NCBI RefSeq assembly: GCF_001477625.1
Contig: NZ_CP013692.1
Location: 4,588,001 to 4,652,000 of the forward strand
Direction: 5' to 3'
Length of the DNA: 64,000 bases
Source of the DNA: Paucibacter sp. KCTC 42545
GTDB lineage: Bacteria > Pseudomonadota > Gammaproteobacteria > Burkholderiales > Burkholderiaceae_C
Positions 14,597-44,466 of this stretch are shown here, one piece after another. How positions within the stretch are numbered: the first letter of the stretch is position 1; every line of letters starts with the position of its first letter. A program made the translations under genes and the position numbers. The notes beneath the pieces were generated by a model. The model searched no databases, was not told the DNA's origin, and saw nothing but the letters and a program-made list of their open reading frames with translations.

Positions 14597-14619
14597 GGGG
14601 AAACTCCTTCAGCTTAGGT

Positions 14620-15531
14620 TCAGTCCTCAAACGAGAAGCGCCGGGCCACGCTCATCAGCAGCCATTCGAGCAAGAGCCCGACGATGCCGATGACGAAGAT
14701 GGCGATGATGATGTGGGCCACATTGAGGTTGTTCCACTCATCCCAGACCCAAAAGCCAATGCCCACACCGCCGGTCAGCATTTCCGCCGCCACGATCACC
14801 AGCCAGGCGGTGCCGACCGAGAGCCGCACGCCGGTGAGGATGTAGGGCAGCACGGCGGGCAGCAGGATGCGGGTGATGACCTTCCACTCCGACAGCTTGA
14901 GCACCCGCGCCACGTTCAGATAGTCCTGCGGCACCCGCTGCACGCCGACGGCGGTGTTCACCACCATGGGCCAGATCGAGCAGATGAAGATGGTCCAGAT
15001 CGCCGCTGGGTTGGCGCTCTTGAACACCAGCAGGCCAATCGGCAGCCAAGCCAGCGGCGAGACCGGCTTGAGCAAGCTGATCAGCGGCGACACCATGCGG
15101 CCGATGAACTCGAAGCGCCCGATCACAAAACCCAGCGGTATGCCCACCGCAGCGGCCAAGCCAAAGCCCAGGGCCACGCGTTGCAGCGAGGCCAGGATGT
15201 TCCAGCCAATGCCTTGGTCATTGGGGCCGCGGCGGTAGAAGGGGTCGGCAAACAGCTGCACGGCCGAGTCCCAAGTGGCCGCCGGCGTGGGGATGCCGCT
15301 GCTGGTCTTGAGGGTGAACAAGGCCCACAGCCCGGTCATCAAGGCCAGGCCCAGCACGGGCGGCAGCAGCTTCATCCACAGGCCATGCCAGTCGAAGCCT
15401 GGCCGGCTGTGGGCGGGCTGGGGCTTGGCCCCGGGCTTGCGGGCCGGGCCGGCCGCCAGTGGCGCTGGCACGGCCGGGGCAAGAACTTCATCATCATCGC
15501 CACGCGGCGAATGGAACACGGCGCTCACCAT
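14620..15531 (-). CDS. nrtB: Nitrate ABC transporter permease
   Basis: 303 residues with a long proline/alanine-rich cytoplasmic N-terminus (about 60 residues), then five to six membrane helices of the BPD_transp_1 fold. The EAA loop is visible around NVARVLKLSEWKVITRILLPAVLPYI (given here only as its landmark positions 200-225). It is the membrane subunit of the NrtABD nitrate importer, 8 bp after nrtA and 23 bp before nrtD. Confidence 0.92.
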   Translation of the reverse strand: MVSAVFHSPRGDDDEVLAPAVPAPLAAGPARKPGAKPQPAHSRPGFDWHGLWMKLLPPVLGLALMTGLWALFTLKTSSGIPTPAATWDSAVQLFADPFYRRGPNDQGIGWNILASLQRVALGFGLAAAVGIPLGFVIGRFEFIGRMVSPLISLLKPVSPLAWLPIGLLVFKSANPAAIWTIFICSIWPMVVNTAVGVQRVPQDYLNVARVLKLSEWKVITRILLPAVLPYILTGVRLSVGTAWLVIVAAEMLTGGVGIGFWVWDEWNNLNVAHIIIAIFVIGIVGLLLEWLLMSVARRFSFED

Positions 15532-15539
15532 GATGGGCC

Positions 15540-16802
15540 TCAGGCTTTCAGCTTGAAACTATCGGCGTACTTGGCCGGCGACTTGCCGTCCCACACCACC
15601 CCGTCCAGCAGCTTGGCGCTGCGCAGCGCCTCCTTGGGCACGGCGATCTTGAGCTGGCTGGCGGCCTGCTTGTAGAGCTCGATCTGGTTGATCTGCGTGG
15701 CCACGGTCAGATAGTCCGGGTGCTCCTTGAGCAAGCCCCAGCGCTTGTGCTGGGTGAGGAACCACATGCCGTCGCTCAGGTAGGGGAAGTTGACCGCGCC
15801 CTCGTTGAAGAACTTCATCGCGTTCGGGTCGTCCCAGGTCTTGCCCAGGCCGTTCTGGTAGCGGCCCAGGATGCGCTGGTTGATCGCATCGGCGCTGGTG
15901 TTGACGTAGGCCTTGTCGGCAATGGTGTCGGCCATCTTCAGCTTGTTCTGCAGATTGGCGTCGATCCAGCGGCTGGCCTCCAGCACCGCCATGATGACGG
16001 CGCGCGCGGTGTTGGGGTTCTTCTTGGCGAAGTCGCCGCTGCAGGCCAGCACCTTCTCGGGGTGGTCGGGCCAGATGTCTTGGGTGGTGGCCGCGGTGAT
16101 GCCGATGCCGTCCATGATGGCGCGGTGGTTCCAGGGCTCGCCCACACAAAAGCCGTCCATATTGCCGACCCGCATATTCGCCACCATCTGCGGCGGCGGC
16201 ACGGTGATGACCTTGCTGTCCTTCAGCGGGTGAACGCCATGCGCGGCCAGCCAGTAATACAACCACATGGCGTGCGTGCCGGTGGGGAAGGTCTGGGCGA
16301 AGGTGTACTCGCGCTTGTCCTGGCGCATCAGCTTGGCCAGCGAGGCACCGTCCACCGCGCCTTGGTCGGCCAGCTTCTTGGCCAGGGTGATGGCCTGGCC
16401 ATTGTTGTTGAGCGTCATCAGCACGGCCATGTCCTTTTTGGGCCCGGCTACGCCCAGATGGACGCCGTAGACCAAGCCGTAGAGGGCATGCGCCATGTCC
16501 AGCTCGCCGTTGACCAGCTTGTCGCGCACACCGGCCCAGGAGGCCTCCTTGCTGGCGACGATCTTGATGCCGTACTTCTTATCAAAGCCCAGCACCGAGG
16601 CCATCACCACCGAGGCGCAGTCGGTCAGCGGGATGAAGCCGATGCGCACTTCTTCTTTCTCGGGCTTGTCCGAGCCGGCGGCCCAGGCGCCTGTTGATAC
16701 CGCGGACGCGGCGGGCAGGGCGGCCGCAGCGGCGGCGCCCAGCAGCAGTTTTCGACGTGGTTCGCTCATCAAACCCTCCATGGCGTGCTTGACCTTGTGC
16801 AT
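15540..16802 (-). CDS. nrtA: Nitrate ABC transporter substrate-binding protein (Tat-exported)
   Basis: About 420 residues. A twin-arginine signal (PRRKLLLGAAAAAALP) is followed by an NMT1/NrtA-type binding domain: VRIGFIPLTDCASVV, ASWAGVRDKL, GTHAMWLYYWLA and NMDGFCVGEPWN, the last being part of the nitrate-binding pocket in NrtA/CmpA proteins. ATG at 16802 is chosen because GGAGG lies 10 nt upstream. It is the first gene after the ANTAR leader and the head of the nrt-nir-nas operon. The signal peptide argues that this is the transport protein and not the cytoplasmic sensor NasS. Confidence 0.93.
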   Translation of the reverse strand: MHKVKHAMEGLMSEPRRKLLLGAAAAAALPAASAVSTGAWAAGSDKPEKEEVRIGFIPLTDCASVVMASVLGFDKKYGIKIVASKEASWAGVRDKLVNGELDMAHALYGLVYGVHLGVAGPKKDMAVLMTLNNNGQAITLAKKLADQGAVDGASLAKLMRQDKREYTFAQTFPTGTHAMWLYYWLAAHGVHPLKDSKVITVPPPQMVANMRVGNMDGFCVGEPWNHRAIMDGIGITAATTQDIWPDHPEKVLACSGDFAKKNPNTARAVIMAVLEASRWIDANLQNKLKMADTIADKAYVNTSADAINQRILGRYQNGLGKTWDDPNAMKFFNEGAVNFPYLSDGMWFLTQHKRWGLLKEHPDYLTVATQINQIELYKQAASQLKIAVPKEALRSAKLLDGVVWDGKSPAKYADSFKLKA

Positions 16803-28886: not shown

Positions 28887-29103
28887 GCTTCACTTTCTTA
28901 GTCCCTGAACTGATCAAAAATAATAACTTATTATCTACAGTGACTCTCCGCTTGCTGATGCTGTCGCGGCAGCAATAGCGGGTCGTCGCTTGTACCCTGA
29001 CGTTCAAGGATGTAAGGGGCGAGCGCTTCTTTCTTTAGCGACTGGTTCGGTTGGCGATGCGGCCAGTCAGGCGTTGCGACCCCGAGTAGCCTAGGCCAAA
29101 GTC
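28887..29103. other. Non-coding region upstream of the STAND gene
   Basis: About 215 bp, AT-rich near 28905..28940. It should hold the promoter of the leftward STAND-glycosyltransferase gene; no convincing -35/-10 pair could be assigned. Confidence 0.4.
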
Positions 29104-29319
29104 CTAGGCATTCTCCGGCAGTGAGTCAATCCAATCGCGCCACTCTTCGATGAACGCGGCGTCACCAACGCTGGCGATGATCCAGCGGACGCGTCGATGG
29201 GCCGTTTGCTCCCACCCCAAATCCCGCCAGGGTTGAGGTACTTCGGCCATGAGGACGTATCCAGTTCCCAGCGGCGTTCGGTGAACGGGTATCGCCTCCA
29301 GAACATCTAAATTGGACAT
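29104..29319 (-). CDS. Hypothetical small protein
   Basis: 71 residues from ATG 29319 (an in-frame TTG at 29325 is an alternative). The sequence is Trp-rich (PWRDLGWEQ, VRWIIAS, EEWRDWIDSLPEN), soluble and acidic at the C-terminus. No family recognised. Same strand as the STAND gene but about 220 bp upstream of it, so an independent unit is likely. Competing frames on the same strand are less protein-like. Confidence 0.45.
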   Translation of the reverse strand: MSNLDVLEAIPVHRTPLGTGYVLMAEVPQPWRDLGWEQTAHRRVRWIIASVGDAAFIEEWRDWIDSLPENA

Positions 29320-29655
29320 GGGCAAATCTCTTGACTTTGAGTATGCCGTGCACCAAGCAAAAGATCGCCACTCTCAATCGGAAACTTCTGCTGAAGTCTT
29401 GAGTTTGCCTGCGCCGAATCCCCTCTCAGGCCATATATGAAACGTAGGCCTACCAGTGCTGGATTGAAATCATAAAGGCTCGATGCATGATAAACCATGT
29501 TGATAAAATGGTTTTGCAGCATTTGGCGACTCTATACATCGACTTTTGCAGATTCTGATTGATGCCAAGTTATTGATATGCCAAGCAGTCCCAATTTCGG
29601 GCTGAGCGAGAATTTTCGAAAAGTATATTAAATAATGAACTAAAAGTACACGTGA
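29320..29655. other. AT-rich non-coding region
   Basis: About 335 bp, markedly AT-rich from 29460 on, between divergent genes. It must carry promoters for the hypothetical gene to the left and the HTH/tns genes to the right. No further feature can be supported. Confidence 0.45.
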
Positions 29656-29706
29656 GTGAATAAGGGTTGGTAACTTCGAACGCCCCCATTAACATCCCTT
29701 ATTCAC
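29656..29706. promoter_or_regulatory. Inverted-repeat operator candidate before the HTH regulator
   Basis: GTGAATAAGGG (29656..29666) and CCCTTATTCAC (29696..29706) are exact 11-bp inverted arms separated by 29 bp. They end 11 bp before the ATG of the HTH gene. The arrangement fits autorepression by that regulator or looping between two half sites. Confidence 0.55.
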
Positions 29707-29717
29707 CCATATTTGCT

Positions 29718-29984
29718 ATGTCAAGCCAAGACAGTTCACGAAAGTCCGCTCTCCAGCAGGAACTCATGCGAATTCGCGAAGACTTCTATCAAAGAGGAGA
29801 GTCAGTCGCGGAATGGTCTCGCCATCATGGCTTTCGCCCAGGCGCTGTCTATCGAGTTCTAAGTGGGCAATCACTTGCGGCGAGAGGTAATTCTCATAGG
29901 ATTGCTGTAGCACTGGGCGTCAAGGGAAGATCAATGCAATCAGAACTGACGCAGCCCCTGGCAGGGAAGGAGGATTCCATGTAA
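29718..29984 (+). CDS. HTH DNA-binding protein, BcepMu gp16-like
   Basis: 88 residues from ATG 29718. The segment VAEWSRHHGFRPGAVYRVLSG then RGNSHRIAVALGVKGR matches the pattern of the phage-associated BcepMu gp16-type family, small HTH proteins of transposable phages. It lies immediately upstream of tnsA in the same direction, so it is probably the transposition regulator. Inverted repeats at 29656..29706 are its likely operator. Confidence 0.7.
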   Translation: MSSQDSSRKSALQQELMRIREDFYQRGESVAEWSRHHGFRPGAVYRVLSGQSLAARGNSHRIAVALGVKGRSMQSELTQPLAGKEDSM

Positions 29985-30010
29985 CCGCCAACCTGAAGTA
30001 ACAGGCGCGC

Positions 30011-30048
30011 AAAAAAACGCCGACCACCCCGGGAAGGGTGATCGGCGT
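30011..30048 (-). terminator. Intrinsic terminator on the minus strand before tnsA
   Basis: ACGCCGACCACCC (30017..30029) pairs with GGGTGATCGGCGT (30036..30048) with one mismatch. Read on the minus strand it is followed by seven T. It would stop leftward antisense transcription entering the HTH gene. On the plus strand it forms a strong hairpin in the tnsA leader without a T-run. Confidence 0.6.
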
Positions 30049-30152
30049 CCGGGAGCTTGAAGCTACCGCAAGAACCTTTAGTTTCATACTCCCCGCGCAA
30101 AAAGTCAATCCCCGGCAACCACCGGGGCTGGATAACTATTGCCTTTCGGGAT

Positions 30153-30830
30153 ATGAAACCAGTTCGAAAAGTAATCACTCGTGCGCCGCACCGCAGTGTG
30201 GGCGCTATTCACGAGCCATGGTTCCAAGCTGAGCCGATTCATCACGAATCCCAGCTGGAGAAATACTGCATCGAGGTGCTGCTTCTGACGCCGAGCGTCG
30301 TGAGGATCGAGCATCAGCCGCTGACCATTCAATATGAAATTGGCGGGAAGAAGCTGGAGTACACGCCCGACCTTCGAATCACCCTGCACGACGGGAGTCG
30401 CGCGCTGGTGGAAGCCAAAGGTCAGCCTTACGAAAACCGCTTTCGGGAACTTCTCGAAGGAGGGTTGCACGAACGCCTGCGTCTCCTCGAGATGCCGCTT
30501 TACCTTGTGCCAGGCAGGCTGGTCGACCAGAGGCACAGGTCCCAAGTCTCGGATCTGAGATCCATGGCGCGGCGCACGCCGCCGGACGGCACGATCGATG
30601 CACTGCTCCGGTGGGCGTCACGAAGTGCCGGAGCGTCCATCGGAGACGCCGAAACAGCGGGGCATCCGCTCGCGCACATTGGCTACGCCGTTGGCCGGCG
30701 ATTGCTGTCCGTTGGCCCGGCCTTCGATCTTTCCCCCAATCAGTCGCTTCAACTCGGGAGCAAGCATGAGCACGTACACATTGACCATTGGCTTGGTTAT
30801 CCGGGAAGGGCTGAGGACGTGGCGGCTTGA
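30153..30830 (+). CDS. tnsA: TnsA-like transposon endonuclease
   Basis: 225 residues from ATG 30153 (MKPVRKVITRAPHRSVG). The nuclease core carries the PD-(D/E)xK pattern: Glu in HHESQLEKY, Asp in YTPDLRI and the pair in VEAK, near residues 33, 75 and 90. TnsA cleaves the 5' ends of the element in cut-and-paste Tn7 transposition, while TnsB cuts 3' ends. Its presence distinguishes this element from classical replicative Tn5053/Tn402 elements. The 3' end overlaps the tniA start by 65 bp. Confidence 0.85.
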   Translation: MKPVRKVITRAPHRSVGAIHEPWFQAEPIHHESQLEKYCIEVLLLTPSVVRIEHQPLTIQYEIGGKKLEYTPDLRITLHDGSRALVEAKGQPYENRFRELLEGGLHERLRLLEMPLYLVPGRLVDQRHRSQVSDLRSMARRTPPDGTIDALLRWASRSAGASIGDAETAGHPLAHIGYAVGRRLLSVGPAFDLSPNQSLQLGSKHEHVHIDHWLGYPGRAEDVAA

Positions 30831-32763
30831 TCGTACGCTTCCCGACTCACAACTGTCCTTCCTTGATCAGTCGACCGGTGCGCTAAAGACCATTTCTGTC
30901 GCCAAGCTGCAGCGTGATCTGGAGGCGGACCGGATCCAAGTCGTCCAGGAATACCCAGTGGCCCTCTCCAGCGCCACGGATTCCAAACTTCGTCTCGTAA
31001 AGACAGTCGAAAGCCTGCCGATTCGGGAACAGGTTGGTTTGCGGCTTCGGTTGGGTTTCGTCAAGCATATGTTGCGACGAGGCCTGCGCAAGGGGATGAG
31101 GGGGGCGATTCAGGCTGAACTGGATAGTCTGGATGGTCAACTGCCTTTTGGCGTGCCGCCTGCGGATGTTGCCAACGCGCGGATTTCCACCAAGCCCCGT
31201 GCGTCTGCGGTCATGGCTTGGATGCGTATTTTTGACGCGTCAGGTGGCAATCCGATGTCGCTCATCAGCGGCATCTGCTTCCGCAAGATGCCTCGACGGC
31301 TAATTCCCCTGGTGGAGGAAATCGCACGTCGAAAAATCAGAGACTACTACTGCACAAGGCAGCGCCCATCGGCCGACAAAACGAAGGTGCTGATCAATCG
31401 AGAACTTGAGCAACAGGTCTCCAAAGGGCGAATTGAGCCAGAAAACGCGGAGATCAGTACTAGCACGCTGCGCCGTCTGATCCTAGACGTCTCGCCCTAT
31501 GACCGGTGCGTTGCAAGATACGGTCCCAACTACGCCCGCAACAAGTGGCGATACAGCCTTGGTGGCATCGATGCTGCACGGCCGCTGGCAAGGTATGAGA
31601 TTGATCACACCATTCTCGACATCGTCGTTGTCGATGATCTGACGGGGCTACCCATGGGACGGCCAACCATAACGGTGGTCGTAGATGCATTCAGCGGATA
31701 CATCGCCGGGTTTTACGTCAGCTTTTGGAGTGCGGGCCTTGCGAGCGCCCTGTCAGCCTTCAAGGTGGCCATCCGTCCCAAGGATCCTCTGTGGGAAATC
31801 GCTGGCTTGAAGAACAAGTGGCTGAGCTGCGGAATCCCTGACCTCATGGTCGTCGACAACGGCCTGGAATTTCACTCGCTCCGATTTCACTCCGTCGCTG
31901 CACATTTGGCGACCGACGTTCTGCACTGTGCAGTTCGACAGCCCTGGCTCAAGCCCCTCGTCGAGAGGGTAATTGGCGAGATCAATCGATCTCTTTCGCA
32001 CCACGGCCGGGTTGAGAAGCAGCTGACCAATTACATCCCAGACAAGCCTGAGAAGTCAGCCTGCATCACCTTCAGCGCCCTTTGCAAGGGGCTGTTGAAG
32101 TTTGTGGTTGACGTTCATCCTTTTGAGATCAACGAGAGACGGCTCGATCGCGCGTACGACCTTTACGCCGAGGGCTTTGCAACACAACTGCCACCTCGGC
32201 TCCCCACGAGCATGGATGCACTGGACATCATCATGGCTGACTCAAAAACCCTCACCGTCGGGAACGAGGGCGTTCTTCATCAGTACCTTCGCTACAACTC
32301 GCCCGAGCTTCAAGAAATGCGCCGAGGAATTGCTCTGACGTTCCAGGCGGAGATCAAGGTCAATCACGAAGACCTTGACCAGATTTGGCTGAAGAACCCC
32401 CGGGACAACGCATGGATGCGAGTCCCATCGTGCTACCCGCAGTACACAGCAGGCCTCTCCACAGTTCAGCACAAAGCCATTAGGGCTCGAAAAAAAAGTA
32501 CCTTGAACCACCGCAATGCTGAGGAGGTGCTGATCCAGTCCAAGCTGGAGCTGATCGATCTCTGGAATACCTCAGCTCGCGCGGGTAAGCGTGCCAAGCG
32601 CCAGGAGCTCCTGGCGCTGGAGGGTCTGGCCTCTACCAGAGTGTTTTCAGCTGCTGGCAAGCCCAAACAGGACAACACCCCTGAGGTGCAACGCCAGATC
32701 CCCATCTCCAAAGATGACTTGTTAGCCATCCCAAAGGAATACGAGACCTATGCATTTGACTAA
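30766..32763 (+). CDS. tniA: DDE transposase TniA/TnsB
   Basis: 665 residues from ATG 30766 with GGGAG 6 nt upstream. The retroviral-type integrase core is visible: first Asp in ARYEIDHTILD near residue 279, second Asp in MVVDNGLEFHS near 361, Glu in KPLVERVIGEINRS near 401; then a beta-barrel (Mu-type) C-terminal region with VPSCYPQYTAG. It binds the end repeats and catalyses strand transfer. It starts inside tnsA and ends 14 bp inside tniB, so all three are translationally coupled. Confidence 0.9.
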   Translation: MSTYTLTIGLVIREGLRTWRLDRTLPDSQLSFLDQSTGALKTISVAKLQRDLEADRIQVVQEYPVALSSATDSKLRLVKTVESLPIREQVGLRLRLGFVKHMLRRGLRKGMRGAIQAELDSLDGQLPFGVPPADVANARISTKPRASAVMAWMRIFDASGGNPMSLISGICFRKMPRRLIPLVEEIARRKIRDYYCTRQRPSADKTKVLINRELEQQVSKGRIEPENAEISTSTLRRLILDVSPYDRCVARYGPNYARNKWRYSLGGIDAARPLARYEIDHTILDIVVVDDLTGLPMGRPTITVVVDAFSGYIAGFYVSFWSAGLASALSAFKVAIRPKDPLWEIAGLKNKWLSCGIPDLMVVDNGLEFHSLRFHSVAAHLATDVLHCAVRQPWLKPLVERVIGEINRSLSHHGRVEKQLTNYIPDKPEKSACITFSALCKGLLKFVVDVHPFEINERRLDRAYDLYAEGFATQLPPRLPTSMDALDIIMADSKTLTVGNEGVLHQYLRYNSPELQEMRRGIALTFQAEIKVNHEDLDQIWLKNPRDNAWMRVPSCYPQYTAGLSTVQHKAIRARKKSTLNHRNAEEVLIQSKLELIDLWNTSARAGKRAKRQELLALEGLASTRVFSAAGKPKQDNTPEVQRQIPISKDDLLAIPKEYETYAFD

Positions 32764-33322
32764 CAGAGAGTTCCGGCTCGCGGAGCCGGAAGAACTTGAA
32801 ATCGAGGCGACCCAGCGCAGAGCACGCGAGCGTTGGTTGAGCACCTACTCCGCCAAAGCAATCAAGCAAGGCGCGGGCATAGACAACGCCCTAGTCAAGC
32901 ACACGAGGTTCCAGGAGCTTGTCGGCGACCTTGAGCGGATGTTCTTGCTGGGCAAGGAATTACGGCAGCCTGTGGGCGGGGTCATCAATGGCGGCGCAGG
33001 GGTTGGCAAGAGTACCTTGTGCCGCTACTTCATGGACACCTTGCCCCTGCATAACCTGACCGAAAGCGGGTCTGGCGTGTTGTACCTCCGTCTGCGACGC
33101 GGGCGATCGTTGGCCGCCGTGGTGCAGCAGATCCTTGGCCAATTGCAGTACCCACTGTTTAAGGTCAATGATGCGAACCTGGATGCCAAGCGCTCTTTGA
33201 CCTTGGATGCCTTGCGCCGCCACAAGATCAGGCTCTTGTTGATCGATGAAGCGCACCAAGTCATCACCCGAAACTCGGCCAAGCGAGACGATGGCTCATG
33301 GGCGGCGACACATTCCGTTTGA
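32750..33322 (+). pseudogene. tniB: TniB/TnsC-like AAA+ ATPase, C-terminally truncated
   Basis: 190 residues. Walker A NGGAGVGKST near residue 86 and Walker B IRLLLIDEAHQV near 162 are intact. After RNSAKRD the usual 110-130 residues with sensor motifs and the lid are missing, and the frame ends within 11 residues (DGSWAATHSV). The next tniQ frame starts within this region, so a deletion seems to have joined the tniB middle to a point inside the tniQ 5' end. TniB/TnsC selects targets and activates the transposase, so this loss should abolish transposition. Confidence 0.7.
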
Positions 33323-34115
33323 GGGGGCTGCCGCCTTTTCCCAGCTGACTGGCGTTCCACAGGCATGGTTTGAGCACCGGTTGCCTCGTTGGCTTGATCG
33401 AGATCGGTGGCGCGAGATCGAACTTTTCGGCCAGGCATGGCGCGACGACTGGACTCTTCGAGGAACGCATCAACAGGTCTGCACTCTGTGTCTGTCAGAA
33501 CAGGGATTTGCCCGGGCCGAATGGGACTTGAACGCATACGCGGCCTGCCATCTGCACGGGACAATTCTGCTCGATCACTGCGGCTATTGCGGTCGAGGGA
33601 TTTCGCCAGATCGACCGGCCGTGGACATCTGCAGTTGTGGCCACTACATCGCAGCCGAGATGATGCCTGCAGACTCGGCCGTAGTTCGATGGTCCGCAAT
33701 GTGCGCTGATGCGGTAGGCGCAGGTGCCGGCATTTGCGCCACGGACCTTGGTGGCTTGAGCCTGCTGCAAGGCCTGAGCGCCGACGGTGCTTATCGAGTT
33801 CTGTTGGCATTCGGAGGGGGGCAACCAGCGCTGCGGGGCCGAGTGCTCAATAGTGTTGAGTCATGGCTGACCAGTGCGGCCATGCATGAGGTGCTCGCGA
33901 CGGCGATTCGTAGGATGGCCGAGCCAACTGGGTTCATGTGGGGCTCTCGAAGTGAGGTCCAACGATGCACTAGCAGTTTGGCTGAGCAGCAGCTTCGCGG
34001 CGTGACGCCCTTTGATCGGACTGCCGCCGGGCACCTTCGAAATGCCATGGGTCTACCTGCCCGCTGGCGTAACAGGCGCCCTGCCTTTCACCATCAACTC
34101 GATTTATTCACCTAG
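33291..34115 (+). CDS. tniQ: TniQ/TnsD-like target-selection protein, N-terminus probably lost
   Basis: About 275 residues. AFSQLTGVPQAWFEHRLPRW is followed by a TniQ-type zinc finger: CTLC at about 63-66, ACHLHG and DHCGYCG, and later ICSCGHY. C-terminal HTH-like repeats are weak. Family members usually begin with a conserved P-DE-SW-R block, which is absent or disturbed here. The upstream part of the frame (from 33246) is only tniB DNA read in another phase. The start is therefore uncertain. Confidence 0.65.
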   Translation: MAHGRRHIPFEGAAAFSQLTGVPQAWFEHRLPRWLDRDRWREIELFGQAWRDDWTLRGTHQQVCTLCLSEQGFARAEWDLNAYAACHLHGTILLDHCGYCGRGISPDRPAVDICSCGHYIAAEMMPADSAVVRWSAMCADAVGAGAGICATDLGGLSLLQGLSADGAYRVLLAFGGGQPALRGRVLNSVESWLTSAAMHEVLATAIRRMAEPTGFMWGSRSEVQRCTSSLAEQQLRGVTPFDRTAAGHLRNAMGLPARWRNRRPAFHHQLDLFT

Positions 34116-34169
34116 GTTTCTTGTGCGTTCTCGAGGCCACAACATGTTGAACCGACACCCATTCTTGCT

Positions 34170-34904
34170 ATGCCTTTTCGCTGGACCATTCCAATCCTTC
34201 GACATTTCGACGCTCGGTTGGCGGCGCTCGCCAACGTCCCTTTTGCGCAGCCACACGAGGCGCCGAATTCCTGGTTCACCCGTGCCGCAGCGATGCAAGG
34301 GTGCACGGCCAAGGAATTCGCGACCTATTTGGGGTTCTCATTCCGACAAGACTTCGACAGCTTCTATTACTTTGCTTTCCGAAAAGTAAGGGCTACCTCG
34401 CCCCAGGTTCAAGGGCTTGAAGCAGGGCGCATCTATTTTGATTTTTCTAGGAAGAAGAAAGAGTTCGGATATACGCTGCCCAACCCTTACTACCGACGCG
34501 GTAGGTATCGTTTCTGCCCGCTTTGCCTTCAGACAGCGAGGGTTCCTTGCATCCATATGTACGCTCGCATGCGAGAGCTAGTCTTCTGTCCTTGGCATCG
34601 ATGTTTACTTGAGGAGCAATGCCCGCATTGTCAAGTGCCTATCGAATTAGTGCAGGACATGATCCAGCCCGCTAAAGGCAAACCTGGGGTGGAGGATCTA
34701 AGTTTGTGTATGCAGTGTCAACAGCCATTGCATGCAGTGGTAGCGTTGCGCATCGACTATCGGATGCTGAATGCCATGCCACTCTGGCTACAGAATTGGG
34801 GGCGCAATGGGCCTGGGCCGATTGAGGGGCGAGGCATCAGCAGCGAACGCTACACGGAGTTCAGTGAACGACGGGCCAAAGCAAGGGAAGCGACCGAAGT
34901 CTAG
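34170..34904 (+). CDS. Second TniQ-like protein
   Basis: 244 residues. N-terminal PHEAPNSWFTRAAAMQGCTAKEFA resembles the TniQ entry motif. A central zinc-finger region has FCPLC, FCPWHRC, CPHC and CMQC. It is 55 bp after the first tniQ. Two TniQ/TnsD proteins in one element often separate attachment-site insertion from other targeting. Lysine- and arginine-rich C-terminus. Confidence 0.7.
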   Translation: MPFRWTIPILRHFDARLAALANVPFAQPHEAPNSWFTRAAAMQGCTAKEFATYLGFSFRQDFDSFYYFAFRKVRATSPQVQGLEAGRIYFDFSRKKKEFGYTLPNPYYRRGRYRFCPLCLQTARVPCIHMYARMRELVFCPWHRCLLEEQCPHCQVPIELVQDMIQPAKGKPGVEDLSLCMQCQQPLHAVVALRIDYRMLNAMPLWLQNWGRNGPGPIEGRGISSERYTEFSERRAKAREATEV

Positions 34905-35298
34905 CCAGGTTCGCACTGCTGAGAGCCGCTTGATCTTGCAGGCTCGACCAATTCATCTACGGTATCGAATTCGAAAACTAGGAACCAGCAACATGATCGG
35001 GAAACTGCTGCGCCTCATCACCTGAACTAATCCAAGAATCGCTACTTCAACAATCGGCCCCAGTATGCATTTGACCCCGCAAGTGCCCGCGCCAGCTGGC
35101 TGTTATTGCGACAGAACCGTAAATAGTCCTAGCACAGAGTCCGGTGGGTTGCTACCCCTGCAAGATGGGGGAGTGCGAGTTCGTGATTTTGCCGTTAGAT
35201 TTGTCACACGGTCAGCAGTTCATGAGCAAAGTCATGGAGTGCCAGCAAAGTTGCTTCGGCTTCTTTGCGATCAGGACAAGGCTCATACCCAAATGGGG
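34905..35298. other. Non-coding region before the riboswitch
   Basis: About 395 bp without a credible gene. It should contain the promoter of the riboswitch transcript; I could not choose a convincing promoter. This is the boundary between transposition genes and bacteriocin cargo. Confidence 0.45.
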
Positions 35299-35406
35299 AG
35301 GGCCTGAATCGCAAACCCGGCGCGAGCCGGCGACGCAAAGCCTCCGGTGTTGGAGGGTTCCGTTTTAAACACGGGACCTTCGCAAGATAGCGGGGTTGCC
35401 GGTCTG
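35299..35406 (+). ncRNA. Cyclic di-GMP-I (GEMM-I) riboswitch
   Basis: Landmarks of the class in order: GCAAACC (35311..35317); a 5-bp hairpin CCGGC-GCGA-GCCGG with GNRA tetraloop (35317..35330); GACGCAAAGCC (35332..35342); a long second stem pairing GAGGGTTCCGT with ACGGGACCTTC; then AGCGGGGTTGCC (35389..35400). GGCC at 35301 can pair with GGTC at 35401 to close P1. This matches the Vc2-type aptamer closely. The first downstream gene, a bacteriocin membrane fusion protein, starts 70 nt later. No T-run follows, so control may be translational. Confidence 0.9.
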
Positions 35407-35476
35407 AGTTCCTCAGGTCGTCATCAAGCTCAGCGTTAGTCGGCCCGCCTTCGAATCCTTTGAGGGTTCAGAGAGC

Positions 35477-36805
35477 ATGGCTTTGACGCAAGCGTTGTTC
35501 AGGCAAGAAGTGATGCAGGCCAGCCAAGCTCAATGGCTCGGCAGTATTCGCATTGGCCGGCCACCCAGTTTTGCATGGGTCACCGGTATCTCGCTGAGCA
35601 TGGCGTTGGCCTTGGTTACCTTTGCCATCTGTGGTGAAGTTACCCGCAAGGCCAAGCTGCCGGGCTTGTTGATGCCGACGGCCGGGATGCTGACCGTCAG
35701 CGCCCCACAAGTCGGGGTTGTGACTGAGTTGCTGGTCAAGGAAGGCGATCTGGTCGCAGCGGGTCAGCCGGTGATGCGGTTGCGAAGCGAGCGCACAACA
35801 TCGCTTGGTGATGCAGCAATCCTCAACGCCCAGGCCTTGGCTCAGCGCCGGCAAACGCTAGAAACCGAGCGGATGCTGACGCAACAGCAGCAACGTCAAC
35901 GACAGCAAGCCCTCAATGATCGACTGCGCAGCTTGGCCGCCGAAGAGCGTCAGGCTCAGGCTGAGTTGGAAACCAACCGTTTGCGAGCTGGCTTGGCGGC
36001 CAAGAGTCTGACCCGCTACGTCGAATTAGAGAAAGACAGCTTTGTTTCGGCCGTGCAACTGCAGCAGAAGCAAGAAGAGCTGCTGGACGTGCAACTGCGG
36101 GAGCGCAACGCCGAGCGAAGCTTGGCAGCCCTGCAGCGCGACATTCAAGCGGCAAAAGCAGAACTGCTCAACAACGAAACCAGTAGCAGCACCAGCCTGG
36201 CTCAAATTGATCGTGGGCTGGCTAGCCTCAGCCAGGAATTCACCGAAAACGATGCTCGCGGCGGATTGACGCTCACCGCACCCCAGGCAGGCCGGGTGAG
36301 CGCCATCACCATTCATCTGGGTCAGCCGGTGCAGGCTGGGCAGACACTTGTGAACTTGATACCAGAAAGTGCGCAGCAAGGCGCCTCAACCTTGGAGGCG
36401 CAACTCTACGCGCCGAGCCGAACAGCGGGTTTCGTCAAACCCGGCCAGGTTGTCTGGCTGCGCTATGCGGCCTACCCCTATCAGAAGTTCGGCATGGCTG
36501 AGGGCGAAGTGCAAAGCATCAGCCAGACCCCTATTGCTGCTCAGGATTTACCTGTCGGGCAGGGACAGGCCTTGCTCGCCGCTGCGCAGGCCAATGAACC
36601 CCTATACCGAATTAGTGTGAAGTTAAAAAAGCAGGACGTCACCACCTATGGCAATACGCAAGCGTTGAAGGCGGGAATGGCGCTTGATGCTGATGTCATG
36701 CAGGACCGCCGGGCAATATGGGAATGGTTGTTCGAACCCGTATTTGCCGCTTCGAGTCTTTTCAAAGATCTCGGAGGTGGAAATAGGTTCAGCCATAGCG
36801 AATGA
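35477..36805 (+). CDS. HlyD/CvaA-like membrane fusion protein of a bacteriocin exporter
   Basis: 442 residues. Short cytoplasmic N-terminus, one membrane helix (FAWVTGISLSMALALVTFAI, about 31-50), lipoyl half LPGLLMPTAGMLTVSAP, a long Gln/Arg-rich coiled coil about 115-260, second lipoyl half LTAPQAGRVSAITIHLGQPV and a beta-barrel. It pairs with peptidase-containing ABC exporters in class II bacteriocin/microcin secretion. It is the first gene behind the c-di-GMP riboswitch. Its C-terminal 160 residues are nearly repeated in the chimeric gene 38552..40255. Confidence 0.88.
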   Translation: MALTQALFRQEVMQASQAQWLGSIRIGRPPSFAWVTGISLSMALALVTFAICGEVTRKAKLPGLLMPTAGMLTVSAPQVGVVTELLVKEGDLVAAGQPVMRLRSERTTSLGDAAILNAQALAQRRQTLETERMLTQQQQRQRQQALNDRLRSLAAEERQAQAELETNRLRAGLAAKSLTRYVELEKDSFVSAVQLQQKQEELLDVQLRERNAERSLAALQRDIQAAKAELLNNETSSSTSLAQIDRGLASLSQEFTENDARGGLTLTAPQAGRVSAITIHLGQPVQAGQTLVNLIPESAQQGASTLEAQLYAPSRTAGFVKPGQVVWLRYAAYPYQKFGMAEGEVQSISQTPIAAQDLPVGQGQALLAAAQANEPLYRISVKLKKQDVTTYGNTQALKAGMALDADVMQDRRAIWEWLFEPVFAASSLFKDLGGGNRFSHSE

Positions 36806-37340: not shown

Positions 37341-37547
37341 ATGCGTATTTTGCAAAACGAAGAATTGAATTTGGCGTCAGGTGGAGATAGTTGGGCTGGT
37401 ACTCCAGAAGGTCGAGCACCGTATGTGTCGCCATTTACTCAGTGCATGGTTGACTCTGTCGGATGGTCGCAGGCAAATGCAGTGATCGCTGGCCTCTATT
37501 GCGGCGGCAAGAAGGTTCTTCAAATGCTTTCCAGTGACAACCCGTAA
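37341..37547 (+). CDS. Bacteriocin precursor with double-glycine leader
   Basis: 68 residues from ATG 37341. Leader MRILQNEELNLASGG has the ELxxxxGG ending recognised by C39 peptidases; the mature part would be 53 residues beginning DSWAGTPEG, with two cysteines (FTQCMVD and LYCGGKK) that could form a disulfide, and a small-residue core SQANAVIAGLYCGG. An upstream in-frame extension to 37221 has no leader features. The antibacterial role is inferred from leader and exporter context. Confidence 0.78.
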   Translation: MRILQNEELNLASGGDSWAGTPEGRAPYVSPFTQCMVDSVGWSQANAVIAGLYCGGKKVLQMLSSDNP

Positions 37548-37612: not shown

Positions 37613-38392
37613 ATGAATAAAGCCAGAGCGTTTTTTGAAAATTTCTTGCTGCTAATTGTTTTGGCGGCCGCCTGTCAAATTATTGGTTCATTATTGAAGC
37701 ATCTATTTTTTGGGTTCGTTGGTTCGCGTGAATGGTTGACTGAGAATTTTTTATTATCAATTTTCTTTCTGGTTGAAGCTGCAATTTTGGCGGTCGTTCT
37801 CGCGAGAGTCAACAGGGGTATCTCGATTGGGGACTTGCTTAAACCTTTTTGGCTTGAGACGTTGTTAATTTCTTTTGTATATTCGAGTGCTATTCTTGTT
37901 GTTGCAGTGGCCTGTAGTGGCAAAAATGTTGCGGAAATTTCACCGAATCTCATTAATCCATTCAATCCGGTTTCAGAATATTGGTGGGCCTCTTTTGTTG
38001 GTTTGTTGATTAAAGCCTTTCAAGAGGAGTTGCTGAATCGAGGCGTACTGCAGCCTTTGATGGGGGAAATGTTTTCTAGCGAAGTAATTGGCTTGGTTGT
38101 TGTTGCGGTTTTGTTCACGTTGGGGCACCCTACGGATAATTTCATGATAGTTTTTCCTGGGGCTGTGGCGCTGGGGGTTGTATTTTTAATAACTAAATCA
38201 GTATTGTCATGCTCGATTCTGCATATTTGCATGAATATTTCTTTTGATATTTTATTTGGGTCAAATTTCACTGTCTCGCCTTTGTTGGATTCGGCCGTTC
38301 TAGAGAATGTGCGCCCAGTATTCTTTCTTGTTGTAATGGCGATGGCTTTTGTTCATTTGTATTTGAAAAAATATCACCATAGTATGACTTAA
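37613..38392 (+). CDS. CPBP-family membrane protease, possible bacteriocin immunity protein
   Basis: 259 residues with seven to eight hydrophobic segments. CPBP signatures: EELLNRG (EExxxR) near 141, VLFTLGHPTDN near 167 and HICMNI near 203. Membrane proteins of this family next to class II bacteriocin genes commonly act as immunity proteins (Abi family) or process peptides. It starts 66 bp after the precursor stop, and codon use is AT-rich compared with the flanking chromosome. Confidence 0.82.
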   Translation: MNKARAFFENFLLLIVLAAACQIIGSLLKHLFFGFVGSREWLTENFLLSIFFLVEAAILAVVLARVNRGISIGDLLKPFWLETLLISFVYSSAILVVAVACSGKNVAEISPNLINPFNPVSEYWWASFVGLLIKAFQEELLNRGVLQPLMGEMFSSEVIGLVVVAVLFTLGHPTDNFMIVFPGAVALGVVFLITKSVLSCSILHICMNISFDILFGSNFTVSPLLDSAVLENVRPVFFLVVMAMAFVHLYLKKYHHSMT

Positions 38393-38551
38393 AGGTTGAG
38401 TTGTTGATTAATTATGAAGAATATATGGCCTTCAAGAGTTGGAGTCAGAGCGTTCCAAATGCCTGATCAGTGGTGCATTGTTTTTGGCTTCAATGGTAGT
38501 CACGAGGTCGCATTTGATTGAAAGAATGTGGCGTTATATTTGTCGACAACA

Positions 38552-40255
38552 ATGAGAATTGTTCTCCAATCTGAGTCTGCGGAATGTGGGCTAGCTAGTT
38601 TGTCTATGGTTTGCAGTGCCCATGGCCTGCATCATGAATTGGCAGATCTGCGCCGGCGCTTCCCTGTCAGCCTCAAAGGCGCAACCCTTCAGCACTTGAT
38701 TGCGCATGCCGCAGCCCTTGGTTTTTCTTCGCGCCCATTGCGCCTTGAGTTGCATGAGCTTGGCGAATTGCAGGTCCCCTGCATCCTCCACTGGGATCTG
38801 AATCATTTCATCGTTCTCAAGAAAGTCCTTCACGGCGGCAAGGCCGCAGTGATCCTCGATCCGGCTGTTGGCGAACGACGCTTGTCGATGGGCGAGATAT
38901 CTCGCCATTTCACCGGCGTGGCTTTGGAGTTGAGCCCCAATGCGGAGTTCAAATCCCAAGCCCCGGCGCCAAAGGTGTCATTGCGAGCCTTGACTGGCAA
39001 GGTCATGGGCCTTAAACGTTCGCTCCTGCAAATCTTTGCCGTGGCCGTGGTGCTGGAGTTGTTTGCTGTTCTTGCACCCTTGTTCAACCAGATGGTGGTG
39101 GATGATGTGCTGACCTCAGGAGACCGCGATCTGTTGTCAGTGCTGGTGATCGGCTTCGGCTTGCTGTTGGTGGTGCAGACTGCCGTCGGCCTGGCTCGGT
39201 CTTGGATGGTGATGGTCTTGGGCCAGACCTTGTCCTTGCAATGGATGGGCAACGTGTTCGCCCATCTGGTGCGCTTGCCGGTGGACTTTCTTGAGAAGCG
39301 GCACTTGGGCGACATCACCTCGCGCTTCGGCGCCGTCAGTGCCATTCAAAAGACTTTGACCACGGCCGCCATTGAGGCGGTGCTGGATGGCCTGATGGCC
39401 GTGGCCGCGCTGGTGATGATGCTGATCTATGCGCCTACGCTTTGCGCGGTCACCGTCACAGCCGTCGCAGCCTACGGCCTCCTGCGCTGGGTGGCCTACC
39501 GACCCTTCCGCGATGCCGCGGCCGAGCGCTTGGTGGTGGCCGCCAAAGAGAACACCCATTTCCTGGAAACCCTGCGTGCCATCACGCCGCTTAAGTTGTT
39601 CGGCCGGGAAGAAGAGCGCCGTGCCCGTTGGCAGAACCTGATCGTGGATGTGCAAAACCGCGATGTGCGCACGGCCAAGATGAGCATTGGCTTCACCACC
39701 GCCAACACCTTCATCTTCGGGCTGGAGAACTTGCTTGTGCTGTGGCTGGGCGCCAAGCTCATCATGACGGGGCAGCCGGTGCAGGCCGGGCAGACGCTCG
39801 TGAACTTGATTCCCGAAACTGCGCAGCAAGGCGCCTCAACCTTGGAGGCGCAACTCTACGCGCCGAGCCGAACAGCGGGTTTCGTCAAACCTGGCCAGGT
39901 TGTCTGGCTGCGCTATGCGGCCTACCCCTATCAAAAGTTCGGCATGGCTGAGGGCGAGGTGCAAACCATCAGCCAAACGCCTATTGCTGCGCAGGATTTG
40001 CCGGTCGGTCAGGGGCAGGCATTACTCACTGCGGCGCAGGCCAATGAACCCCTCTACCGGGTTAGTGTGAAGTTGAAAAAGCAGGCGATCACCACCTATG
40101 GCAACACGCAGTTGCTGAAGGCCGGCATGGCACTGGATGCCGACGTAATGCAGTACCGTCGGACAGTTTGGGAATGGGTGTTTGAGCCCATCTTTGCCAC
40201 TTCTAGTTTTTTCAAAGAACTTGGAGGCAGACGTTCGTTCGCACATAGCGAATGA
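38552..40255 (+). CDS. Chimeric gene: C39 peptidase + ABC membrane domain fused to MFP C-terminus
   Basis: 567 residues (GTG 38528 is an alternative start). Residues 1-130 are a C39 peptidase (SAECGLAS with the Cys, HWDLNHF with the His, ILDPAVG with the Asp) and 150-405 the exporter membrane domain, almost identical to PCAT 42346..44466. At LIMTGQ the sequence switches to PVQAGQTLVNL, the C-terminal 160 residues of the membrane fusion protein. The nucleotide-binding domain and the MFP anchor are both lost. A recombination at the shared GGGCAG / GGTCAGC bases explains it. It cannot be an ATP-driven exporter by itself; a leader peptidase remnant is possible. Confidence 0.85.
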   Translation: MRIVLQSESAECGLASLSMVCSAHGLHHELADLRRRFPVSLKGATLQHLIAHAAALGFSSRPLRLELHELGELQVPCILHWDLNHFIVLKKVLHGGKAAVILDPAVGERRLSMGEISRHFTGVALELSPNAEFKSQAPAPKVSLRALTGKVMGLKRSLLQIFAVAVVLELFAVLAPLFNQMVVDDVLTSGDRDLLSVLVIGFGLLLVVQTAVGLARSWMVMVLGQTLSLQWMGNVFAHLVRLPVDFLEKRHLGDITSRFGAVSAIQKTLTTAAIEAVLDGLMAVAALVMMLIYAPTLCAVTVTAVAAYGLLRWVAYRPFRDAAAERLVVAAKENTHFLETLRAITPLKLFGREEERRARWQNLIVDVQNRDVRTAKMSIGFTTANTFIFGLENLLVLWLGAKLIMTGQPVQAGQTLVNLIPETAQQGASTLEAQLYAPSRTAGFVKPGQVVWLRYAAYPYQKFGMAEGEVQTISQTPIAAQDLPVGQGQALLTAAQANEPLYRVSVKLKKQAITTYGNTQLLKAGMALDADVMQYRRTVWEWVFEPIFATSSFFKELGGRRSFAHSE

Positions 40256-40314: not shown

Positions 40315-40566
40315 ATGAAAGAACTCTCTATTGATCAGGTTGCAGCAGTCAATGGCGGCGCAAACAATGGCTGGGGATTTGCGGGAGCTGTTCTAGCCGT
40401 AGCCGGCGGCACGATTGCAATCTGCACTGCCCCAGTCTGGGGTGCAGTTGGTGGCGTGTTGGCAATTGCTGCAGTCGGAGCAAATGCTCTCTCGTCTTAC
40501 TCTTCGAGTGGCGGCACTTGCGGTGGTGGCCGCCAGCAAAACATGCAAGTAGTTGTTTCAGAGTGA
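40315..40566 (+). CDS. Class IIb-like bacteriocin precursor with double-glycine leader
   Basis: 83 residues. Leader MKELSIDQVAAVNGG, then a 68-residue glycine/alanine-rich hydrophobic peptide with GxxxG-type spacing (GWGFAGAVLAVAGG, GAVGGVLAIAAVGA) and two cysteines. This is typical of pore-forming class II bacteriocins/microcins exported by C39-containing ABC transporters. A decayed duplicate exists at 36866. It lies 59 bp after the chimeric transporter gene. Confidence 0.85.
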   Translation: MKELSIDQVAAVNGGANNGWGFAGAVLAVAGGTIAICTAPVWGAVGGVLAIAAVGANALSSYSSSGGTCGGGRQQNMQVVVSE

Positions 40567-40726
40567 CGATTCAGCTAAGTGGAACTTAGTTAGGATTTAA
40601 TGAGTTTGACTCTCGTTGTTGCGCCAAAAATTTTGCGGCGCAGCGATGTTCCTGAAAAATAATCAGGCAGACAAACAACTCTCAAAAAACATCTACAAAA
40701 TTTCAGCCAATCGAAACTGGGCACTC

Positions 40727-41092
40727 ATGCGTAACGAAGAATTCCGTAGGCGACTATCGGCTTCCTTGGTCATTTTGCAAAAAAACAATATAAGCGAATC
40801 ATCATATTCGCCACCAATGTATAAGTTATATTGGAAAATTGGCTTCCGCCTGCCGCCTCCACATTTTTTGGGATTTTTTTCCAATATGTTAATTTCCGGG
40901 CTTCCACTAGGAATTTCCGCGGTTGGACTTTATATGATGGGCCACGAGAATTCAAGTGTGTTTATCCTGCAAATGATGCTGGAAATGCTAGTCGTCGCAC
41001 TGTTTTTCACCGTGGCGTGGGGATCTGTCGTCGCGATGTTCTATGAAAGAGATCGCAAGCGGCACCAACTTCCGCGATGGAGTTCAATATAA
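40727..41092 (+). CDS. DUF6404-like small membrane protein, possible immunity protein
   Basis: 121 residues from ATG 40727. N-terminal soluble helix (RRRLSASLVILQKNNISES), then the conserved-looking YSPPMYKLYWKIGFRLPPPHFL and two to three membrane helices (NMLISGLPLGISAVGLYMM, MMLEMLVVALFFTVAWGSV). The pattern resembles the DUF6404 family. Its position directly after the precursor suggests immunity, which is inference only. The frame is open further upstream to 40616 but without a better start. Confidence 0.65.
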   Translation: MRNEEFRRRLSASLVILQKNNISESSYSPPMYKLYWKIGFRLPPPHFLGFFSNMLISGLPLGISAVGLYMMGHENSSVFILQMMLEMLVVALFFTVAWGSVVAMFYERDRKRHQLPRWSSI

Positions 41093-42088: not shown

Positions 42089-42331
42089 GTGTTTGTATTA
42101 TTTGTGGTGGCAGGGTCATATTTTTTTTCCAAAACTGTTATTTCAGCCAAAGCAGGTAGGCGTCATGCGCCTTGGGTAAATGCTTGCCTGGCGTGCTTGG
42201 CCGCCGTGGGACAAAGGCTGACATTTCCAGATCCGAATCCAGAACAAGTCTTTTGGACTTTGGTCGGCAGTGCAGGCTTATCTTGGTTGGGCATTCGCGC
42301 TGGACGGGCCTTAGCCAAGAGAGGCGAGTAG
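42089..42331 (+). CDS. Possible small membrane protein before the PCAT gene
   Basis: About 80 residues from GTG 42089: an N-terminal helix VFVLFVVAGSYFF and a second weaker one near LVGSAGLSWLGIRAGRAL. It stops 14 bp before the exporter start. Start codon and reality are uncertain; no family recognised. Confidence 0.35.
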   Translation: MFVLFVVAGSYFFSKTVISAKAGRRHAPWVNACLACLAAVGQRLTFPDPNPEQVFWTLVGSAGLSWLGIRAGRALAKRGE

Positions 42332-42345
42332 ACCTTGACGCACAA

Positions 42346-44466
42346 ATGAAGCTATCGCTCCAATCTGAAGCTAGCGAATGTGCGCTTGCCTGCCTTGCAA
42401 TGATTGGCCGCGTCCATGGCCGGCATCAAGACTTAGCCGATCTACGACGTCGCTTCCCCGTCAGCCTCAAGGGGGCCACACTTCAGCAACTGATCTCGCA
42501 TGCTGGCGCGCTGGGCTTTTCTTCCCGCCCCTTGCGTCTTGAATTGCATGAACTCGGCGAACTGCAAACACCCTGCGTCCTCCACTGGGACTTGAACCAC
42601 TTCGTCGTTCTTAAGAAAGTTCTTCACGGCGGCAAGGCCGCAGTGATCCTCGATCCGGCAGTGGGCGAACGACGCTTGTCTATGAGCGAAATATCTCGCC
42701 ATTTCACCGGCGTGGCTTTGGAACTGAGCCCCAATGCGGAGTTCAAGTCCCAAGCATCGGCACCGAGGGTGTCGATGCGAGCGTTGACCGGCAAAGTGAT
42801 GGGGCTTAAGCGTTCGCTGTTGCAAATCTTTGCCGTGGCCGTGGTTCTGGAGATGTTCGCCATCGTGGCTCCCTTGTTCAACCAGATGGTTGTGGACGAC
42901 GTGCTCACCTCGGGAGACCGCGATCTGTTGTCAGTGTTGGTGATCGGCTTTGCATTGCTGCTTGTGGTGCAGACGTCGATTGGCTTGGCTCGATCTTGGA
43001 TGGTGATGGTCTTGGGTCAGACACTGTCCTTGCAATGGATGGGCAATGTGTTTGCTCATCTGGTGCGCCTACCGGTGGACTTCTTTGAGAAGCGCCACTT
43101 GGGCGACATCACTTCGCGCTTCGGCGCCGTCAGTGCCATTCAAAAGACTTTGACCACGGCCGCTATTGAAGCGGTGCTGGATGGCCTGATGGCCGTGGCC
43201 GCGCTGGTGATGATGCTGATCTACGCACCCACGCTTTGCGCGGTGACCGTCACAGCCGTCGTAGCTTACGGCCTCCTGCGCTGGGCGGCCTACCGACCCT
43301 TCCGCGATGCCGCAGCCGAGCGCTTGGTGGTGGCCGCTAAAGAAAACACCCATTTCCTGGAAACCCTGCGCGCCATCACGCCACTCAAACTGTTCGGCCG
43401 AGAAGAAGAGCGCCGTGCCCGCTGGCAGAACCTGATCGTGGATGTGCAAAACCGCGATGTGCGCACGGCCAAGATGAGCATTGGGTTTTCGACAGCCAAC
43501 ACCTTCATCTTCGGGCTGGAGAACTTGATGGTGCTGTGGCTGGGCGCCAAGCTCATCATGACCGGGCAGCAAGCGGGTGCGGTGACGATGACAGTGGGCA
43601 TGCTGTTTGCCTACCTCAGCTACAAGGGCCAGTTCACGGGCCGCGTGTCGGCCCTGATCAATTACGCCGTGGAACTCAAGATGTTGGGCCTGCATGCGGA
43701 GCGCCTGGCTGATATTGCCTTGGAGCCGCCCGAGAAGGACGACGTGCCGGCAAACGATTTGCAGCACCTCGTGCCCAGCATTGAACTCAGAGGCGTCAGT
43801 TTCCGCTACGGTGAGGGCGAGCCTTGGATTTTGCGTAACGCTAACTTCCGAATCGAAGCCGGCGAGAGCGTGGCCGTCACTGGCCCATCGGGGGCGGGCA
43901 AGACGACCTTGCTCAAGATTGCGTTAGGCCTGCTTAAACCCAGCGAGGGTGAGGTCTTGTTCGGTGGCATGCCGGTGCGCCAATTGGGCCTGCAGAACTA
44001 TCGCCGCCAGATCGGCACGGTGATGCAGGAGGATGCTTTGCTCACGGGCTCACTCAGCGACAACATCGCCTTCTTCGATGTGCAGCCCGATCAGGCCCGA
44101 ATTCAGGCCTGCGCGGAATTGGCGCAGTTGCACGCCGACATTTGCCGCATGCCCATGGGCTACCAAACTTTGGTGGGCGACTTGGGCTCGGGCCTGTCGG
44201 GTGGGCAGAAGCAGCGGCTCTTGCTGGCGCGAGCCTTGTACAGGATGCCGCGCATCTTGGCGCTGGACGAAGCGACGAGTCATTTGGATTTGCAAAACGA
44301 ACGCGCAGTCACCGCGGCCTTGAGCAACTTGCCGTTGACCCGTTTGATCATTGCCCATCGACCCGAAACGATTGCTGGGGCGCAGCGGGTGGTGATCGTG
44401 CGTGACGGGCAAGTGATGGAACTTGCCAGAGCCGTACCCGCCTTTGCTGAAAGTGAGCAGGCGTAG
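42346..44466 (+). CDS. Peptidase-containing ABC exporter (PCAT) for double-glycine peptides
   Basis: 706 residues from ATG 42346. C39 peptidase: Cys in SECALACLAMI (residue 14), His in LHWDLNHFVV near 88, Asp in ILDPAVG near 104. Six-helix exporter domain about 155-420. ATPase: Walker A GPSGAGKTT near 512, signature GLSGGQKQR near 620, Walker B ILALDEATSHLD near 640. It cleaves GG leaders and exports the mature peptides through the inner membrane with the fusion protein 35477..36805. It is the only complete exporter in the region. Confidence 0.93.
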   Translation: MKLSLQSEASECALACLAMIGRVHGRHQDLADLRRRFPVSLKGATLQQLISHAGALGFSSRPLRLELHELGELQTPCVLHWDLNHFVVLKKVLHGGKAAVILDPAVGERRLSMSEISRHFTGVALELSPNAEFKSQASAPRVSMRALTGKVMGLKRSLLQIFAVAVVLEMFAIVAPLFNQMVVDDVLTSGDRDLLSVLVIGFALLLVVQTSIGLARSWMVMVLGQTLSLQWMGNVFAHLVRLPVDFFEKRHLGDITSRFGAVSAIQKTLTTAAIEAVLDGLMAVAALVMMLIYAPTLCAVTVTAVVAYGLLRWAAYRPFRDAAAERLVVAAKENTHFLETLRAITPLKLFGREEERRARWQNLIVDVQNRDVRTAKMSIGFSTANTFIFGLENLMVLWLGAKLIMTGQQAGAVTMTVGMLFAYLSYKGQFTGRVSALINYAVELKMLGLHAERLADIALEPPEKDDVPANDLQHLVPSIELRGVSFRYGEGEPWILRNANFRIEAGESVAVTGPSGAGKTTLLKIALGLLKPSEGEVLFGGMPVRQLGLQNYRRQIGTVMQEDALLTGSLSDNIAFFDVQPDQARIQACAELAQLHADICRMPMGYQTLVGDLGSGLSGGQKQRLLLARALYRMPRILALDEATSHLDLQNERAVTAALSNLPLTRLIIAHRPETIAGAQRVVIVRDGQVMELARAVPAFAESEQA

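Follow-up and report, generated by a model that had tools for sequence, protein, structure and literature searches.

Class II microcin loci, as described in the accessible part of PMC9746304, consist of a C39-peptidase ABC exporter, an HlyD protein and double-glycine peptides. In c-di-GMP-I (GEMM-I) aptamers, G11 of Cd1 is equivalent to G20 of Vc2, and this position is presented in the available portion of PMC9262584 as a selectivity factor, not a hard filter; the Cd1 mutants G11C and G11A are reported there to retain c-di-GMP binding with loss of some preformed structure. A G20A GEMM-I aptamer with bound cGAMP is a solved and simulated complex (PMC6274999, accessible part), and rare c-di-GMP-I variants sense c-AMP-GMP according to the accessible part of PMC7266159. 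No report linking a c-di-GMP riboswitch to bacteriocin, microcin, colicin V or C39 export was found in the open-access literature, a scope outside which most subscription journals fall. The riboswitch mentioned in the accessible part of PMC4947327 is a TPP riboswitch, not a c-di-GMP riboswitch.

Aptamer and exporter region in the window

The window, which is the whole 64-kb stretch of Paucibacter sp. KCTC 42545 DNA that was analysed, contains a single match to RF01051 (c-di-GMP-I) in an Rfam covariance scan. This match (35300-35403, + strand) covers the complete model (1-87) with 44.0 bits, above the gathering score of 35, and an E value of 2.5e-5 for the window, which bears out the riboswitch class proposed by the first-pass annotation. 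The landmarks named there were all located: CCGGC-GCGA-GCCGG at 35317-35330 is the GNRA hairpin, GACGCAAAGCC and AGCGGGGTTGCC are both present, and so are the conserved junction strands. Judged from its sequence, the element is regarded as a real c-di-GMP-I-class aptamer preceding a microcin-type exporter. The next gene encodes an HlyD-family fusion protein, as had been claimed, and starts 73 bases beyond the aptamer. The features of the region, all on the + strand, are as follows:

30057..34904, +, decayed Tn7-like block with tnsA, tnsB-like, truncated tnsC and two tniQ-like genes (Pfam)
35246..35267, +, inverted repeat CAAAGYTGC-N4-GCWKCTTTG, found 31-33 bases upstream of each of six aptamers
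35400..35420, +, hairpin rivalling the 3' strand of P1, candidate expression platform (predicted folds)
35477..36805, +, hlyD-type membrane fusion protein, 442 aa (PF13437, E 5.7e-16)
37341..37547, +, candidate microcin precursor, 68 aa, with the double-glycine-type leader MRILQNEELNLASGG (leader pattern)
37613..38392, +, CPBP-family membrane protein, possibly for immunity (PF02517, E 2.6e-14)
38528..40255, +, chimeric ORF, C39 and ABC membrane part joined in frame to an HlyD C-terminal part (Pfam, tblastn)
40315..40566, +, second candidate precursor, with the leader MKELSIDQVAAVNGG (leader pattern)
40616..41092, +, DUF6404 protein (PF19942, E 5.8e-25)
42229..44466, +, C39-peptidase ABC exporter, apparently intact (PF03412, PF00664, PF00005)

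Between hlyD and the first candidate precursor there are 535 bases. The chimeric ORF lacks an ATPase and would be explained most simply by tandem duplication of the unit from hlyD to the exporter, followed by deletion. The top solved-structure matches of the exporter at 42229..44466 are ABC-type bacteriocin transporters, and the exporter and fusion protein presumably resemble the CvaA/CvaB type of class II microcins. Both export components of such a locus, the C39-peptidase ABC transporter and the membrane fusion protein, are present in the window, together with two double-glycine-leader precursors recognized by pattern, neither of which matched a family in profile searches. The CPBP and DUF6404 proteins are only candidates for immunity. 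The region appears to fit a class II microcin-like layout. Of the bacteriocin export that had been annotated, the HlyD, C39-ABC and double-glycine-peptide arrangement downstream was upheld, but the peptides themselves match no family.

The first-pass annotation also placed the cassette on a mobile element. The tnsA-, tnsC- and two tniQ-like genes upstream exceed the Pfam cut-offs, which tnsB does not reach; with tnsC and the first tniQ incomplete, there is no intact tnsABC/tniQ set. A non-exhaustive search for terminal repeats between 28887-30060 and 34901-64000 returned only matches of at most 14 bases, and one local inverted repeat was seen in the search for Tn7-like ends. The copies of this cassette at 977 kb and 1.80 Mb have neighbouring ORFs that, by eye, resemble insertion-sequence genes and not tns genes. 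The decayed Tn7-like genes speak for the claim, but the incomplete set, the failure to find terminal repeats and the other copies without tns neighbours speak against it, and carriage of the cassette on a mobile element is weakly supported.

Elsewhere in the window, positions 1160-1281 (-) match Rfam Bcj11 (Burkholderia RNA 11) with 58.9 bits. A 415-aa open frame encloses this match in the same orientation, and the match may therefore be conserved coding sequence, not RNA.

Paralogous copies and relatives

Eight aptamers over the RF01051 cut-off were identified in the genome (5.17 Mb, one contig), the highest count among 299 family genomes; the next highest among the matches listed is six, in three genomes. 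Six of the eight are paralogues, located at 977, 982, 1798, 1802, 4581 and 4623 kb, the last being the window copy. Five paralogues precede hlyD, all at 73 bases, and this gene is intact at the window, 982 and 1802 kb and truncated or frameshifted at 977 and 1798 kb. The sixth (4.58 Mb), which carries A at the Vc2 G20 equivalent (A20), precedes an hlyD relic; next come a ShlB/FhaC-family gene and an adhesin-like ORF of very large size (the ORF by eye). At positions 14278-16748 (-) of the genome piece 4564000-4583900, this A20 aptamer and relic lie directly 5' of the ShlB/FhaC-family gene, and the A20 riboswitch may now head a two-partner-secretion operon. A further full hlyD at 1.82 Mb belongs to an intact cassette with a leader-type peptide and an exporter, has no aptamer leader, and has a transposase-like ORF upstream. 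A possible ninth, degenerate c-di-GMP-I aptamer was seen at genome positions 3802015-3802117 (-), with 18.7 bits in Rfam, below the cut-off, and 36.1 bits with model R1.

Five of the eight aptamers (three of six separate loci) have a same-strand C39 gene no more than 10 kb downstream of them. In crude random placement, at least three of six loci fell this close upstream of a C39 gene in 2 of 200,000 trials. The inverted-repeat pattern occurs at the six sites upstream of the paralogous aptamers and nowhere else in the genome, and a reversed-pattern control gave no site. For the repeat at 35246-35267, an operator, a leader hairpin and a duplication remnant are the options.

Identity between the window and 982 kb copies is 97% for the aptamer and 99% for the leader, compared with 55% at hlyD third codon positions and 53% in the DNA 81-130 bases upstream. 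The first 50 hlyD codons of this most diverged pair are also 93% identical, and recombination may therefore contribute to the conservation of aptamer and leader. The 1.80 Mb copies show 82-99% identity through hlyD segments. Against the 4.58 Mb relic copy, the whole aptamer of the window is 88%, the leader 90% and the upstream DNA 60-77% identical, and aptamer positions 5-54 differ at 1 of 50, namely selectivity position 20. Aptamer and leader are thus conserved beyond the flanks and hlyD synonymous sites, more than by chance, to which recombination may add. The paralogues are too alike for a compensatory-change test of P1 covariation; one copy has P1 pairs changed from G-U to A-U and from C-G to U-G, and in the 4.58 Mb copy P1 contains a C-U mismatch and the distal P3 is misaligned.

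Model R1 detected no convincing aptamer at 82 hlyD loci of relatives (29 from family genomes and 53 others), which are up to 81% identical, and 25 of these loci that were also scanned with Rfam gave no RF01051 match; some loci are short upstream (167 bases; 540 bases), so that a distant aptamer could escape. Weak R1 scores at four loci (14.5 bits, E 0.99; 14.4, E 1.1; 12.4, E 3.3; 6.8, E 2.5) were taken as chance, the window copy scoring 74.7 bits in the same searches. Among the loci with a named source, the highest identities are 81% for an uncultured Burkholderiales MAG and 77% for Paucibacter sp. DJ2R-2. These matches would place the host within the Burkholderiales, close to Roseateles and Paucibacter. 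A C39 exporter is present near hlyD in 11 of 13 relatives' loci examined, the other two being short or ending just past hlyD, and leader-type peptides adjoin hlyD in at least three. The exporter family is shared with the relatives and no aptamer was found at the 82 loci; therefore, the riboswitch-exporter link looks specific to the Paucibacter sp. KCTC 42545 lineage.

Searches of plasmid records gave nothing matching 35180-36805. In a class-wide set of 151 genomes, 27 besides KCTC 42545 contain 39 RF01051 matches (E up to 1e-4), 38 of them over the cut-off. Ten of the 27 also have a C39 match, in no case on the same contig, a weak result since the assemblies are fragmented. A survey of aptamers drawn from among the matches listed in family genomes comprised 159 rows (157 distinct). 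When the sequence downstream of all 159 aptamers (in most cases 1.5 or about 4 kb) was searched by tblastn, HlyD matched only the six of this genome, and the exporter gave two partial, ATPase-only matches. In another genome, two c-di-GMP-I aptamers are arranged in tandem with a spacing of 836 bases, and each stands before a gene resembling a curli-type subunit (by eye).

Position 20 and the expression platform

Window position 35310 (+), model position 11, is C where the RF01051 consensus is G, a point absent from the first-pass annotation. At this ligand-contact position, the equivalent of Vc2 G20, the window aptamer thus departs from the consensus; among the six paralogues, the base is C in five and A in the 4.58 Mb copy. 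Across the 157 distinct aptamers surveyed, among the matches listed, position 20 is G 135 times, C 18 times and A four times. The 18 C20 aptamers among these matches include the five exporter copies of this genome, 11 in 11 other genomes that precede subtilase-like genes, and two located before genes that by eye resemble chemoreceptors; all 18 retain CC at the 3' contact strand. Six of the 11 subtilase-like proteins were tested, all being Peptidase_S8, and five were assigned by eye. This natural C20 set, before subtilase-like genes in 11 other surveyed genomes, makes the role of position 20 in GEMM-I directly testable.

Class membership of the window aptamer is kept because position 20 acts as a selectivity factor and not a hard filter (PMC9262584, accessible part). 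The published G-to-C mutant still binds c-di-GMP according to the same portion of that source, and the window aptamer is therefore probably a working cyclic-dinucleotide sensor. Binding of c-di-GMP is expected by analogy, with selectivity less certain.

The hairpin at 35400-35420 appears in unconstrained folds of all six copies and is gone once P1 is forced. In the folding model, forcing P1 carries a penalty of 7-15 kcal/mol, and the relic copy requires one forced mismatch. No terminator was found 3' of the window aptamer; the sole terminator-like site falls within the aptamer itself, and chance alone predicts 0.8 such sites. A search of 34900-35500 for sigma-70-like promoters found none.

In the proposed mechanism, the c-di-GMP-I riboswitch would form the leader of hlyD and set expression of the membrane fusion protein by the level of a cyclic dinucleotide, most likely c-di-GMP. 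Ligand would stabilise P1, and when ligand is absent the 3' strand of P1 would instead be taken up in the 35400-35420 hairpin. Given that no terminator lies 3' of the aptamer, control would most likely act at translation. P1 formation would free CCUCA, the complement of UGAGG in the putative ribosome-binding site, although this pair is absent from the predicted folds; because of this complementarity, repression of hlyD by ligand is favoured slightly, at barely better than even chances. The ribosome-binding/start region is largely paired in both modelled states in the five copies before hlyD, and folding therefore does not give the sign of control. The leader may have been joined to the exporter within this lineage and then copied along with it, position 20 being mostly C and once A.

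Weighing of readings and comparison with known systems

A riboswitch-controlled hlyD of a class II microcin-like exporter is considered, with moderate confidence, the best explanation of the locus. The aptamer, the gene order, the copies, their conservation and the position-20 variants were observed directly, and ligand, mechanism, sign and peptide activity are inferred from them. It is preferred because RF01051 is matched over the cut-off and six paralogues exist, five before hlyD at 73 bases; because the aptamers sit upstream of C39 genes beyond random placement; because aptamer and leader are more conserved than flanks and hlyD synonymous sites; and because the C39-ABC exporter, HlyD and double-glycine peptides match the class II microcin layout (PMC9746304, accessible part). 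Retention of C20 aptamers before subtilase-like genes in 11 other genomes (among the matches listed) and c-di-GMP binding by Cd1 G11C and G11A (PMC9262584, accessible part) argue in the same direction. Against this explanation stand the non-consensus ligand-contact base, the 7-15 kcal/mol cost of P1, a start region that stays paired in both modelled states, the promoter search of 34900-35500 that found no sigma-70-like site, the broken hlyD behind two aptamers and the relic behind one, the leaderless intact cassette at 1.82 Mb, and a link common to none of the relatives examined (82 hlyD loci). Switch and exporter could also both work on peptides that are not bacteriocins, serving instead as signals, adhesion or matrix peptides. 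The candidate peptides match no family and other c-di-GMP-I targets of the genus resemble surface or secreted functions (by eye), but the combination of double-glycine leaders with a C39 exporter and HlyD agrees with class II microcin loci as given in part of PMC9746304, and the CPBP and DUF6404 membrane proteins adjoin as possible immunity; such cargo is doubtful, though a serious contender.

A shifted ligand preference of the C20/A20 paralogues, relaxed among cyclic dinucleotides or towards 3',3'-cGAMP for the A20 copy, is unlikely. Position 20 is the sole difference between the window and 4.58 Mb copies within aptamer positions 5-54, the G20A GEMM-I complex with cGAMP has been solved (PMC6274999, accessible part) and rare variants sense c-AMP-GMP (PMC7266159, likewise), whereas in the A20 copy the hlyD that follows is dead and P1 contains the C-U mismatch, C20 aptamers accompany ordinary c-di-GMP-type targets (among the matches listed), and Cd1 G11C retains c-di-GMP binding in the accessible part of PMC9262584. 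It is quite unlikely that the aptamers are passengers of duplicated, decaying exporter cassettes, without regulation that matters now: aptamer positions 5-54 differ from the relic copy at 1 of 50 while the flanks drop to 60-77%, and of the five hlyD genes led by an aptamer three are intact, even though several cassettes are broken, the near-identity of the leaders can stem from recombination (93% in hlyD codons 1-50 of the most diverged pair) and the intact 1.82 Mb cassette manages without an aptamer. The most far-reaching proposal, a long shot, is an amplified module in which a riboswitch-microcin exporter fusion spread through the genome and C20/A20 divergence lets the individual exporters, and a single two-partner-secretion operon, respond to distinct cyclic dinucleotides or at distinct thresholds. 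Should the aptamer of the preferred reading, the riboswitch-controlled exporter, bind, microcin-type export would be tied by an RNA switch directly to the sessile-motile messenger.

The region resembles a class II microcin locus (PMC9746304, accessible part) in its C39-peptidase ABC transporter, membrane fusion protein and short double-glycine-leader peptides, and differs in having several partly decayed cassettes per genome and a cyclic-dinucleotide-type riboswitch in the leader. The window aptamer is like RF01051 GEMM-I in its full-length model match, GNRA hairpin, junction strands and CC at the 3' contact strand. Unlike typical members, it has C at the Vc2 G20 equivalent and a microcin-type exporter as its target, and it is one of six paralogous aptamers within one genome. 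The change falls at the same selectivity position as in the 3',3'-cGAMP (c-AMP-GMP) GEMM-I variants; the 4.58 Mb copy has A20, whereas the window and four other copies carry C, not A.
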